Virus record (IMG/VR): IMGVR_UViG_3300032665_000190
Location: 1-23,488 of that record
Source of the DNA: a virus
Length of the DNA: 23,488 bases
Direction: 5' to 3' (one strand)
The notes below the pieces were generated by a model that did no database searches, had not been told where the DNA came from, and saw only the letters and a program-made list of their open reading frames with translations. The stretch's first letter is position 1. Every line of letters begins with the position of its first letter. Shown piece after piece: positions 7,328-11,391 of this stretch. A program made the translations under genes and the position numbers.

Positions 7328-7777
7328 TTAAATTTCAGGTTGTGGTGCTGGTGGAGGTGCTAACTTACCACCGTAACCAACTACCGGGTCGGCTGCTGGT
7401 GTTGGAGTTGGTACACTAACTGGTGTTGGTCTTGTAACTGGCGCAGGTACATAAGATGTTGTTGGCACATAAGGTGTGCTGGGTGTAACTGGCGCTGGCG
7501 AGACTGGTGTTGGTTTGGTAGCTGCATTAAGTGCTTGTGCCTTTAAGTCTTTGTCGTTACCCGCTAACATAATACCAGATAATGTACCTGTTAAGAATGT
7601 AGCGATTGGGATAATCATCTCAAAGAACTTTTGGTCGATAGGACTAATAGCATTTAATGGCTGAGTAATAAAGATAATTGAATATAACACAACAAAGACA
7701 ATACCTGTCAATGTAAGTGCTAAGCAAATACCAATAAAGAATTTCAGACGAGCCATTAGCTGGTCTTCTGTATACAT
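7328..7777 (-). CDS. Two-helix membrane protein with proline-rich tail, holin candidate
   Basis: The protein has 149 residues from ATG 7777 (MYTEDQLMARLKF). Two hydrophobic segments lie at about 12-37 and 52-72, separated by a short loop. They are followed by a roughly 60-residue Pro/Thr/Val/Ala-rich tail with imperfect PTPVS/PAPVTP repeats. The open frame continues upstream to 8002, but that part would overlap the Cys-rich exported protein by more than 200 bases and looks non-native, so the internal start is chosen. No strong Shine-Dalgarno is visible at 7777. Two membrane segments, a small size and a position next to the endolysin suggest a holin; the long Pro-rich tail is unusual for one. 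It could be a membrane anchor of another kind. Confidence 0.65.
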   Translation of the reverse strand: MYTEDQLMARLKFFIGICLALTLTGIVFVVLYSIIFITQPLNAISPIDQKFFEMIIPIATFLTGTLSGIMLAGNDKDLKAQALNAATKPTPVSPAPVTPSTPYVPTTSYVPAPVTRPTPVSVPTPTPAADPVVGYGGKLAPPPAPQPEI

Positions 7778-7787
7778 GAATGGTTGA

Positions 7788-8069
7788 TTATTTTCCACAG
7801 CTTGCTCCACTTGGTTTACATGATGGGGTGTTTGTTTGTGTTGGTTGATCCGCAGGTGGTGGAGGACCCAATCTAGGGTCTCTTTGGCCTTTGAAAATTT
7901 GTTCTGGACAAGTCCTCGTAACGTCACAAATAGGTGGTTTACAATCATCTGAATCCCAATTCTTAGGGTCTTGGCATGGGTATCTGAACTGGTCATGGCC
8001 ACAAAATGCCAAGGTTAATGGTAAAATGAGCAAGAGACTTGCCCACGCAAATAGTTTATGGTCGTGCAT
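7788..8069 (-). CDS. Cys-rich exported protein in lysis cassette
   Basis: The protein has 93 residues, starts one base after the endolysin stop, and is preceded by GGAGCC. The N-terminus is a signal sequence or anchor (residues 5-22, hydrophobic) ending at LAFC. This resembles a lipobox, but phenylalanine at the position before the cysteine is atypical, so lipidation is uncertain. The mature part has six further cysteines (32, 43, 48, 54, 84, 91) and the pattern YPCQDPKNW...CKPPIC...CPE, which I associate with small proteins of marine T4-like phages. A Pro-rich stretch (LGPPPPADQP) follows. Its place between endolysin and holin candidate suggests a periplasmic lysis accessory; the function is not established. 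Confidence 0.75.
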   Translation of the reverse strand: MHDHKLFAWASLLLILPLTLAFCGHDQFRYPCQDPKNWDSDDCKPPICDVTRTCPEQIFKGQRDPRLGPPPPADQPTQTNTPSCKPSGASCGK

Positions 8070-8701: not shown

Positions 8702-8911
8702 TCATGCTAGTGCTTGCGCTAATTGTATTGCTCCCATCAAAATAGCATGATATTCATCGTTTTCTGCCAACTGGTCTGCATTGGCATCTATTCTTGCAAC
8801 AATATTCATATCGTTGATTAATTCTTTGTACTCATCGGCAGTCAATTGACCTTCATTATATAACTGTTGGTACCCTTGTGCCTGAATCGCTAAATCTTGT
8901 ATTGCTGTCAT
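8702..8911 (-). CDS. Small acidic helical protein of unknown function
   Basis: The protein has 69 residues, predicted almost entirely helical, and is acidic with many Gln, Ala and Asp. There is no signal peptide, cysteine or recognised motif. The start at 8911 overlaps the stop of the lipoprotein gene upstream (ATGA), and the stop lies seven bases ahead of the endolysin ATG, so it is translationally embedded in the lysis operon. A fragment such as LYNEGQLTADEYKELI has the look of a short helical-hairpin repeat that occurs in many phage small proteins. It might be an antiholin-like or chaperone factor for the endolysin, but nothing in the sequence demonstrates this. Confidence 0.7.
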   Translation of the reverse strand: MTAIQDLAIQAQGYQQLYNEGQLTADEYKELINDMNIVARIDANADQLAENDEYHAILMGAIQLAQALA

Positions 8912-9267
8912 CTTGGTTCACCCCCAATTGCTTTTTGTATTTGTTCTGCCGACTTGGATATACTATTTAGTTTTAAACCACAATAGGTTGGATTAATAGT
9001 GTCTTTTTGGTGTAGTTCATCCACCAATATAAACAAGTCATTGTTCATCTTTACTGTTACGTCATTGTATGGTAGAAATTGACTATAATTCTTTAGTTCC
9101 AATGCGTCCTGGTATAGTACCTGTACACCTTCTTTGGTACAATTCTTTAATTCGGCATCGGTACGTACTTTATTGACTAGGCCATACTCATTATTGTCGT
9201 AATGTGCAACAAATAGAATGGAACAACCAGATAACAATGCAACTAGGCTTAATATTAGTTTTTTCAT
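8908..9267 (-). CDS. Putative lipoprotein in lysis region
   Basis: The protein has 119 residues with a lipoprotein signal peptide: MKK, a hydrophobic run, and the lipobox LSGC with C15. The mature domain (about 105 residues) is mixed alpha/beta with two more cysteines (around 43 and 96). It has no proline-rich region, so it does not look like an outer-membrane spanin. The spanin role is better filled by the embedded gene at 9556-9768. No clear Shine-Dalgarno is seen between the upstream stop and ATG 9267. It may be an outer-membrane or inner-membrane lipoprotein that acts in lysis or superinfection exclusion. The family is not recognised. Confidence 0.75.
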   Translation of the reverse strand: MKKLILSLVALLSGCSILFVAHYDNNEYGLVNKVRTDAELKNCTKEGVQVLYQDALELKNYSQFLPYNDVTVKMNNDLFILVDELHQKDTINPTYCGLKLNSISKSAEQIQKAIGGEPR

Positions 9268-9272
9268 ATTTG

Positions 9273-9512
9273 TTATTTTGCAGTTTGGTGTGTTTGTACT
9301 AACCAGTCTACCGCATCCTTTTTGGTTTTATGTAATTTACTCATATCCCAATGTTTAGAATATGCTTTATGTGGTGTTTTTTTATTAGAAAATGATTGCA
9401 TAATGTTGCCAATATGTTGGCCATTATGGTGTACATTTAATATTGAACCGTCTTTAACAATTTTTGTTGCTTCATCTAATGGTTCTCCTATAAATGATTT
9501 GAAAGATTTCAT
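9273..9512 (-). CDS. Small head-interior protein candidate with capsid-targeting-like leader
   Basis: The protein has 79 residues. It begins MKSFKSFIGE, very close in pattern to the T4 internal-protein capsid-targeting sequence MKTYQEFIAE, which the prohead protease removes after (I/L)xE. A second such site, LDE, lies at residues 12-14. The remainder (about 22-76) is one mini-domain with VHHNGQHIGNI and DAVDWLVQTH. It closely resembles a segment inside the 807-aa protein at 14049-16472. The start overlaps the stop of the inner spanin gene (ATGA). I infer a small packaged internal protein made of a single copy of this module; packaging is not shown by sequence alone. Confidence 0.75.
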   Translation of the reverse strand: MKSFKSFIGEPLDEATKIVKDGSILNVHHNGQHIGNIMQSFSNKKTPHKAYSKHWDMSKLHKTKKDAVDWLVQTHQTAK

Positions 9513-10084
9513 GGATTAATCCTTTTCTGTTCTTTCAACCACATCTGTATACCAGTCATTTTGTCTGCGAGTTCGTGGTAGAGTTCGTAGTTGTCGGCAA
9601 CTGTTCTTTCGACTTCAGAGAGTGCAACTCCGGAACTGGATCCAGCCACTCCTTCGGGTAATCGGGAAACGGTACCTTTAGCGGCGTTGTCGTGAAGCAG
9701 GACGAAAGACTGAGGCACATCACACATATGGTCATCAGCGGTAGTAATTTGTTTAACAATTTCATCATGGACTATCCTATCTTGAATTACTTTATCATGT
9801 ATAACTTTAACAACTTCCTGTGTAACAACTTTTTGTTCTGATACAACTCTTTCAACTTCGGCTTTGGCACTTATTAAAACATCTTGCCTACCTTCTACAT
9901 AAAAACCAGCCGCAAAGACAACAATTGCCAATAATCTAATTGGCAATCTGTATAAAAAGGGAATTAATTTGTTGAGTATTGCTTCTAGTACAAAGAGCAC
10001 TACTCCCACTCCGACTATTGCCCATGGTACCCATGTCGGTAATAGACCTAGTAAATAATTAATTGAAAACAATGACGAAAACAT
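9509..10084 (-). CDS. Inner-membrane spanin (Rz-like), host of embedded o-spanin
   Basis: The protein has 191 residues. The N-terminus has two hydrophobic segments (about 18-36 and 44-62) followed by a long periplasmic region: coiled-coil heptads with many V, K and E (about 70-115), then CDVPQSF, a Gly/Ser stretch, and a C-terminal helix with DNYELYHELADKMTGIQ that looks like the end of Rz-type i-spanins. Two membrane segments instead of one is unusual for Rz. The decisive support is a complete lipoprotein gene embedded in another frame (9556-9768), the lambda Rz/Rz1 architecture. Spanins fuse inner and outer membranes in the last step of Gram-negative lysis. Confidence 0.85.
   Translation of the reverse strand: MFSSLFSINYLLGLLPTWVPWAIVGVGVVLFVLEAILNKLIPFLYRLPIRLLAIVVFAAGFYVEGRQDVLISAKAEVERVVSEQKVVTQEVVKVIHDKVIQDRIVHDEIVKQITTADDHMCDVPQSFVLLHDNAAKGTVSRLPEGVAGSSSGVALSEVERTVADNYELYHELADKMTGIQMWLKEQKRINP
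9556..9768 (-). CDS. Embedded outer-membrane spanin lipoprotein (Rz1-like)
   Basis: The protein has 70 residues and is encoded entirely within the inner spanin gene in a different frame. It has a lipoprotein signal peptide with lipobox LSSC (lipidated C24), leaving a mature chain of about 47 residues. The mature part starts with a proline-rich segment (PLKVPFPDYPKEWLDPVP), the hallmark of Rz1 proteins, and ends in a Thr/Asn-rich tail. The initiation region is credible: AGGA at 9775-9778 on the minus strand is 6 bases from ATG 9768. Local base composition is more GC-rich than in surrounding genes, as expected for doubly constrained sequence. Partner: the i-spanin at 9509-10084. Confidence 0.85.
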   Translation of the reverse strand: MMKLLNKLLPLMTICVMCLSLSSCFTTTPLKVPFPDYPKEWLDPVPELHSLKSKEQLPTTTNSTTNSQTK

Positions 10085-10087
10085 GAT

Positions 10088-10693
10088 TTATGCCTTTGGC
10101 GGTTTTCTCTTAACCATGCCTAATAAAATTGGGCTTTTCTTTTTACGTTTATTGTTGTAAACCCCAGGTTCACTTTGGTTGCTATTAGGACCTTGTGCTC
10201 CCATACCTGCAACACCACCGGTTACTGCTGTTGGTCCTGCTGAACCTACGGCACCAGCGCCACCATCTTCAGCAATTTCTTCAACTTCTTCATTTTTCAT
10301 ACCGCTATGGTGTAAGTGTGCAACAATATCACCAGCTTCGTGTTTATTTTCCACTTTGTCTGTTTGATAGTCTTTATGTGATTCGTTACCTGGCCAATTT
10401 GGATTGCTACTACCATGATATCTCCACATATTACCTTCTTTTTCTACATCACCAACGTGTTCACCACTAGGAGAATGAACTCTATATTTACCCGAATGTT
10501 TTTGGCGCATTGTATAACCGTGAGCTACAGGAATACCTTTAGCTTCAGTAACAACTTCTTCTGGCACACAGTTAGGTACTGTTCCACCATTCTTCTCTTT
10601 GGTGCCAACAGCAGTATAACCAGACCAACAAGCCTTCTTAAGGCCACCAGTTGGTTTCTTAACTTCGTTGATAAAACTTTTAAATGATATCAT
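10088..10693 (-). CDS. Head-interior protein candidate with FINE leader and Cys mini-motif
   Basis: The protein has 201 residues from ATG 10693, which overlaps the preceding stop as TAATG; an ATG 12 bases further upstream is in frame but less likely. The leader MISFKSFINE matches the T4 capsid-targeting pattern, with a predicted protease site after INE. It continues with CWSGYTAVGTKEKNGG and NCVPEEV, a cysteine-bounded module also present in the next protein upstream. The V72-H130 region (RVHSPSGEHVGDV, later AGDIVAHLHH) looks like the mini-domain of the 79-aa protein. The tail is Gly/Ala-rich, then strongly basic (NKRKKK, VKRKPPK), suitable for DNA contact. I recognise no named family. Confidence 0.75.
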   Translation of the reverse strand: MISFKSFINEVKKPTGGLKKACWSGYTAVGTKEKNGGTVPNCVPEEVVTEAKGIPVAHGYTMRQKHSGKYRVHSPSGEHVGDVEKEGNMWRYHGSSNPNWPGNESHKDYQTDKVENKHEAGDIVAHLHHSGMKNEEVEEIAEDGGAGAVGSAGPTAVTGGVAGMGAQGPNSNQSEPGVYNNKRKKKSPILLGMVKRKPPKA

Positions 10694-11391
10694 TAGCAAT
10701 TCCACTTTCTTAAGGCTAATGCTTTACGTGTTGGCTTACCGTTTGGTTTCTTCATAGGTCCTTTAACGCCACCCATACGAGCACAGAATGATTTTCTACG
10801 ATTTGCAGCTTTAGAACCTGGTTTTAGTTTTGATGGCTTTGTTGTTACTGCCATACTTAATTTAGAACCTGGATGTTCTCTACGATATGAAGCAATACCT
10901 TTACGGTTCAAACCACCTTTAGGGTCTTTACCAGCACTTCTTTGCCATGCAGCCGATTCAAATAGTTCTTCGTCTGATACATCATCGAGGTCTTCCCAAA
11001 TAACTTCAGGATCAAGCTTGTTGACTTCTGCAATTTCCATAACAAGTTCTTCAATGATATCAAACATAACATCAGGATTATGTTCTTCTTTGAGCTCACT
11101 ACGCATATAATTGGCAACAGTCATAATGTAATCTTCCGCCAACGTGATTTTGGATTCAACCCATTCAGGTAAATCTGTTTTGTCACCAATCAAGTCCATC
11201 ATTTCTTGTGCATTATGCATGATAGTCTTTAATTGATTAACTGCCATATATGGATCAGAATATTCCGGATCTTTAGCTTCTGTAACTTCTTCTTTTGCAC
11301 AGCTACCAGGTGAATATGGTTCTTTACCGGATACTGGTTTATATCCAGTCCAGCATCTTCCTTTTTCTCTAATTTGTTTAAATGTTTTCAT
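10693..11391 (-). CDS. DUF6321-like protein with short leader, head-interior candidate
   Basis: The protein has 232 residues. The leader is MKTFKQIREKG, a shorter variant of the capsid-targeting pattern with IRE as the possible cleavage site. The module CWTGYKPV...SCAKEEVTEAK (13-40) is paralogous to that of the following gene. A helical domain (about 47-97, MAVNQLKTIMHNAQEMM, KITLAEDYIM) resembles a domain common in T4-like marine phages. The C-terminal 85 residues, rich in K, R and G (GGLNRKGIASYRREHPGSKL, FCARMGGVKGPMKK, ALRKWNC), match my memory of DUF6321. The start overlaps the upstream gene as ATGA. Its basic tail and leader suggest a nucleic-acid-associated head protein. Confidence 0.78.
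   Translation of the reverse strand: MKTFKQIREKGRCWTGYKPVSGKEPYSPGSCAKEEVTEAKDPEYSDPYMAVNQLKTIMHNAQEMMDLIGDKTDLPEWVESKITLAEDYIMTVANYMRSELKEEHNPDVMFDIIEELVMEIAEVNKLDPEVIWEDLDDVSDEELFESAAWQRSAGKDPKGGLNRKGIASYRREHPGSKLSMAVTTKPSKLKPGSKAANRRKSFCARMGGVKGPMKKPNGKPTRKALALRKWNC

Follow-up and report, generated by a model that had tools for sequence, protein, structure and literature searches.

A probable embedded spanin pair in a T4-like phage, with relatives in which the C-terminal helix is carried by the other subunit

The best-characterised inner spanins (i-spanins) have one membrane segment, not two. Embedded spanin pairs, of which 182 were found among 677 phage genomes, are often overlooked by annotation, and a periplasmic cysteine is present in at least one subunit in 507 of 528 spanin systems (Kongari 2018, PMC6139136). 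In that survey, embedded members never shared a family with overlapped or separated ones, and the indel route that it described runs between the overlapped and separated layouts (PMC6139136). In the literature searched, which covered few subscription journals, we found no later report of a mixed-layout family, no description of spanin tails that switch frame, and no i-spanin with two membrane segments.

The pair described here lies in a 23,488-nucleotide stretch of viral DNA (IMG/VR record IMGVR_UViG_3300032665_000190; the window). The first-pass annotation had proposed that a proline-rich lipoprotein of 70 residues, with an LSSC lipobox and its own AGGA ribosome site, is encoded in another frame inside an Rz-like gene, and the coordinates, lengths, and frame all agree with that description (Table 1). 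The phage is a freshwater T4-like virus; its primase and that of Prochlorococcus phage P-TIM68 share 47.5% identity, and the window also encodes a ribonucleotide reductase and ThyX.

Table 1. Positions of the putative spanin genes, their sequence features, and the endolysin gene in the window
Feature	Coordinates	Strand	Basis or remark
i-spanin gene, 191 aa	9509..10084	minus	ORF
o-spanin gene, 70-aa lipoprotein	9556..9768	minus	+1-frame ORF fully embedded in i-spanin gene
Shine-Dalgarno-like AGGA	9775..9778	minus	6 bases 5' of o-spanin ATG; sequence and relatives
Lipobox LSSC codons, o-spanin L21-C24	9697..9708	minus	sequence
i-spanin hydrophobic segment 1, residues 19-37	9974..10030	minus	Kyte-Doolittle 2.38
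i-spanin hydrophobic segment 2, residues ~46-62	9899..9949	minus	equivalent of the single segment of distant homologues
Codon for i-spanin periplasmic Cys C121	9722..9724	minus	invariant in three alignments of relatives
i-spanin C-terminal tail helix, residues 155-191	9512..9622	minus	carried by o-spanin in overlapped and adjacent relatives
Endolysin, GH19-like, 207 aa	8071..8694	minus	phrog_181 endolysin, E 2e-71; Pfam Glyco_hydro_19 below cut-off

The o-spanin ORF occupies 0.55 to 0.92 of the length of the i-spanin gene. Its lipobox is followed by Phe at +2 (there is no Asp at this position), and the mature protein would have 47 residues, including 7 Pro and 9 Thr. When the i-spanin protein was held fixed and its codons were shuffled or resampled, a +1 ORF of at least 70 aa arose in 2 to 3% of trials, and ORF length alone was therefore rejected as proof of an o-spanin gene. 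A lipoprotein-like +1 ORF of at least 50 aa arose in 30 and 49 of 20,000 such trials with shuffled and resampled codons, respectively. Among the genes of the window, an embedded lipoprotein-like ORF is unique to the i-spanin gene.

The reality of the embedded frame is decided by its conservation in relatives more than by the sequence of the window alone. Scans of IMG/VR yielded 25 contigs with the embedded layout and two hydrophobic segments, and these related phages keep the second frame, as the first-pass annotation required: the +1 lipoprotein is present in 25/25, although in one of them (L019/L045) the contig end cuts both genes. All of these relatives have the lipobox and a Pro-rich motif, which in the o-spanins of the near relatives reads PFPxxPxE(L/W)(M/L)xPxPEL. 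In the window and the relatives closest to it, the lipobox Cys lies one residue earlier (LSSC-F) than elsewhere (LYGC-T, and also LSGC and LSAC), which indicates that the lipobox has been retained even though its key residue has shifted. Most near relatives have AGGA, AGGG, or GAGG at equal spacing to the o-spanin start; a Shine-Dalgarno-like site is weak or absent in L036, L042, L043, and L046-L052. The frame is kept where i-spanins are only 42 to 94% identical and also in distant one-segment homologues, and C121 of the i-spanin is invariant across three alignments.

Divergence between seven separate pairs of relatives points the same way. The i-spanin frame has a synonymous divergence of 63/327 (0.19) inside the overlap versus 221/512 (0.43) outside it, while non-synonymous divergence in that frame is equal inside and outside (0.10), and the share of third-position changes differs between the two regions (Fisher p = 4e-4). 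For the o-spanin frame, pN/pS is 0.49. Lowered synonymous divergence of the i-spanin frame within the overlap is the mark expected of two selected frames, and the 70-aa frame is very probably a genuine o-spanin gene embedded in an i-spanin gene in the lambda Rz/Rz1 layout.

The i-spanin appears to consist of an N-terminal helix, two hydrophobic segments, a long periplasmic helix, and a small C-terminal domain that ends in a tail helix. An AlphaFold model from a 26-row alignment (mean pLDDT 81; a 16-row run with pLDDT 59 was set aside) has helices at residues 2-14 and 18-39, a continuous helix at 47-111, a small domain, and the tail helix at 155-189. With Foldseek, named inner spanins and Rz-like proteins were matched at a probability of 0.90 to 0.99 with modest TM-scores, and fold and sequence searches of the PDB gave nothing significant. 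The N-terminal tail lacks K and R in 16/17 members (the exception has one such residue), and the loop between the segments always has at least one; this charge pattern predicts an N-out, loop-in, C-out topology. The two hydrophobic segments noted in the first-pass annotation are no peculiarity of the window, since they occur throughout the freshwater T4-like group, and the two-segment plan is also present in a freshwater family with adjacent genes (L099 type). One-segment homologues align with the second segment of the window protein, and the first therefore seems to have been added in the two-segment group.

Residues 72-190 of the i-spanin, which comprise the C-terminal domain and tail, match positions 51-169 of the phrog_4952 profile (E 8e-21), a family labelled "signal peptide motif" rather than spanin, and the o-spanin weakly matches phrog_456, "Rz-like spanin" (E 1e-3). 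No Pfam family matched the i-spanin above cut-off, and nothing found places it in the lambda Rz family: there was no sequence match, the protein has two segments, and matches to PHROG Rz families are weak. Neither the i-spanin gene, used as a DNA query against the phage collection, nor the o-spanin alone, used in tblastn, gave a match. Two cultured phages have homologues, Luteibacter phage Pluto and Pseudomonas phage Bise, and both proteins match phrog_4952 strongly. In Bise, the embedded lipoprotein is clear and the pair lies downstream of an annotated protease-family gene and a small membrane protein. A Limnohabitans prophage (L196) has a cassette of holin (phrog_1356), Phage_lysozyme (PF00959, 8e-32), and then an i-spanin with an embedded lipoprotein. 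Phrog_4952 thus appears to be an i-spanin family. Its members L021, L022, and L196 carry the embedded +1 lipoprotein frame, which is weakest in L021.

The pair has the components of a two-component spanin, namely, a predicted inner-membrane protein with a periplasmic domain and a predicted lipoprotein partner, and C121 of the i-spanin provides the periplasmic cysteine. As to location, the endolysin gene belongs to the same gene run, 0.8 kb downstream of the pair, and the L196 cassette is canonical. A second lipoprotein gene (8908..9267, minus strand; 119 aa, lipobox LSGC) is kept in 5/5 records searched, and its start coincides in most relatives with the stop codon of the i-spanin gene; the L099-type family has a different, unrelated-looking lipoprotein in a similar place. 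Between this gene and the i-spanin gene, in the window and L001 only, is a 79-aa gene (9273..9512, minus strand) with an N terminus like that of 10088..10705 (MKSFKSFI and MISFKSFI, respectively). The ORF at 7328..7777 (minus strand) adjoins the endolysin and is a holin candidate, with about 149 aa from an internal ATG (MYTEDQLMARLKFF) and two hydrophobic segments; the GTG start listed for it at 8002 is probably too early. Directly after the endolysin, 7788..8069 (minus strand) encodes a Cys- and Pro-rich, secreted-looking protein of 93 aa with a lipobox-like LAFC, for which no family match was found.

That the embedded frame arose by chance or is a vestige, with the long frame as the sole gene, might be suggested by the open +1 frames of 70 aa in 2 to 3% of codon-shuffled versions and by eleven other genes of the window that hold non-lipoprotein +1 ORFs of 50 to 108 aa. 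However, a chance ORF would hardly keep its lipobox across such divergent i-spanins and in distant one-segment homologues, or be accompanied by constraint on host-frame synonymous sites within the overlap only, and this explanation seems extremely unlikely. It is very unlikely, although somewhat less so, that the downstream 119-aa lipoprotein is the actual outer partner and that the embedded one has some other role. The start of that gene at the i-spanin stop in most relatives and its retention in all five records searched would fit a partner, but its profile matches include none to spanin-like proteins beyond the signal peptide, a different gene takes its place in some overlapped relatives (L049 and L051), and the distant homologue L196, which has an embedded pair, is without such a gene directly downstream.

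Two hydrophobic segments, unlike the plan of lambda Rz, and the lack of a Pfam family would also suit a holin, or some other membrane protein whose C-terminal domain is cytoplasmic. We consider this identity highly improbable for the 191-aa protein, because positive charges lie in the loop between the segments and not in the N-terminal tail, so that the C-terminal domain is predicted to be periplasmic; the invariant cysteine fits that compartment, and the domain is homologous to those of one-segment i-spanins whose cassette has its own holin and lysozyme. The retention of the second frame in relatives, the dual-coding constraint, and the homologues in a lysis cassette all uphold the lambda Rz/Rz1-type layout proposed in the first-pass annotation, and we assign a probability of about 0.93 to the reading that the locus encodes a two-component spanin whose genes have the embedded layout and whose i-spanin and lipidated o-spanin would fuse the membranes. 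Weighing against it are the weak PHROG matches of the o-spanin, the non-spanin label of phrog_4952, the missing Pfam match of the i-spanin, the 0.8-kb distance to the endolysin, the second lipoprotein as a potential competing partner, and the single segment of well-studied i-spanins.

Relatives of the pair differ in which subunit carries the tail. In seven contigs (L046, L047, and L048-L052), an early stop ends the i-spanin, and the lipoprotein frame runs on into a tail homologous to window residues 155-191. A profile built solely from i-spanin tails finds the tail in these overlapped o-spanins with E values of 1e-6 to 1e-15, and the DNA of embedded and overlapped members can be aligned on either flank of the junction. 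In the linker, overlapped members have 25 or 28 extra bases, and each number is a multiple of three plus one, indicating that the frame of the tail has changed in this group. On the o-spanin, the tail is under purifying selection (pS 0.86 and pN 0.13 between L046 and L048). In 79/80 freshwater contigs of the L099 type, the two genes lie next to each other, with a 1-base overlap, and the o-spanin carries the tail; an independent view comes from the external phrog_4952 profile, to which the i-spanin of L116 matches at 10-116 and its o-spanin at 131-169. One spanin family thus contains embedded, overlapped, and adjacent layouts. The adjacent pairs (L099 and L116-L195) belong to a large freshwater phage family with 163 contigs matched and a two-segment i-spanin beside a tail-bearing o-spanin; a tblastn search with the L099 pair gave no match among the cultured phages of the collection.

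A tree of the i-spanin without its tail, from a short alignment of 123 columns that does not place the deepest root, puts the overlapped group beside embedded L112 (98/90) and within the embedded two-segment clade (100/100). Because the overlapped group nests in the embedded clade, the tail there most likely moved from the i-spanin to the o-spanin; for the embedded clade versus the L099 group, a tree without the deepest root gives no direction. The tail-on-o-spanin group, as distinct from the window itself, could instead reflect an assembly artefact or a hidden programmed frameshift that yields an i-spanin tail too, given that the i-spanin stop is just 5' of the tail and a +1 shift there restores the full protein. 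Such an origin is unlikely, however, as the group comprises seven contigs with two different length changes, the constraint on the tail in the o-spanin frame is strong, and inspection by eye revealed no obvious slippery site. It seems probable that the embedded and overlapped layouts interconvert by frame changes in the linker and that the C-terminal helix works on either subunit, belonging to neither in particular. If so, the helix would act at the joint of the spanin complex from either side.

In the mechanism that we propose, the i-spanin would be anchored in the inner membrane by its two segments, with the N terminus and C-terminal domain predicted from the charges to be periplasmic. A helix of about 65 residues, including the second membrane segment, would extend into the periplasm and lead to the small domain with its one invariant cysteine and then to the C-terminal helix. 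The o-spanin would have its own translation start in the +1 frame, receive its lipid at C24, and be delivered to the outer membrane, and the two subunits would bind through their C-terminal parts. After the endolysin cuts the peptidoglycan, the pair would fuse the inner and outer membranes, as has been proposed for lambda Rz/Rz1, from which this last step is taken over. Lipidation, topology, binding, and fusion are all deduced from the sequences and from this analogy.

The pair in the window is a new member of a well-known embedded class. We found no report of a tail moving between subunits by frame change for the embedded arrangement, and the family supplies what the 2018 survey missed, namely, embedded, overlapped, and adjacent homologues with a readable route between two layouts. 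The origin of embedded spanins, and the question of which subunit needs the C-terminal helix, become directly approachable by swaps. In addition, phrog_4952 and a large freshwater spanin family without a match in cultured phages now have a suggested function.

In its layout, the pair resembles lambda Rz/Rz1, in which the o-spanin likewise lies wholly inside the i-spanin gene in the +1 frame, with a lipobox and a Pro-rich mature part, beginning in mid-gene and ending near 0.9 of the i-spanin gene; this position is close to the range for most embedded pairs (Kongari 2018, PMC6139136). It differs from lambda in that the i-spanin has two hydrophobic segments and one cysteine rather than two, the mature o-spanin has no cysteine except the lipidated one, and the genes are not adjacent to the endolysin. 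The T4 pair pseT.3/pseT.2 shares the T4-like background and the two-component organization, but its layout is separated and no sequence relation to the window pair was detected. The phrog_4952 proteins of Bise, Pluto, and the Limnohabitans prophage share a homologous i-spanin C-terminal domain and tail and the +1 lipoprotein embedded in the gene (evident in Bise and in the prophage, weakly matched in Pluto), whereas they have one hydrophobic segment and about 30% identity to the window protein. The L099 and L116-L195 pairs share the two-segment phrog_4952-type i-spanin and a lipoprotein partner with the same tail, but their genes lie next to each other and the o-spanin carries the tail.
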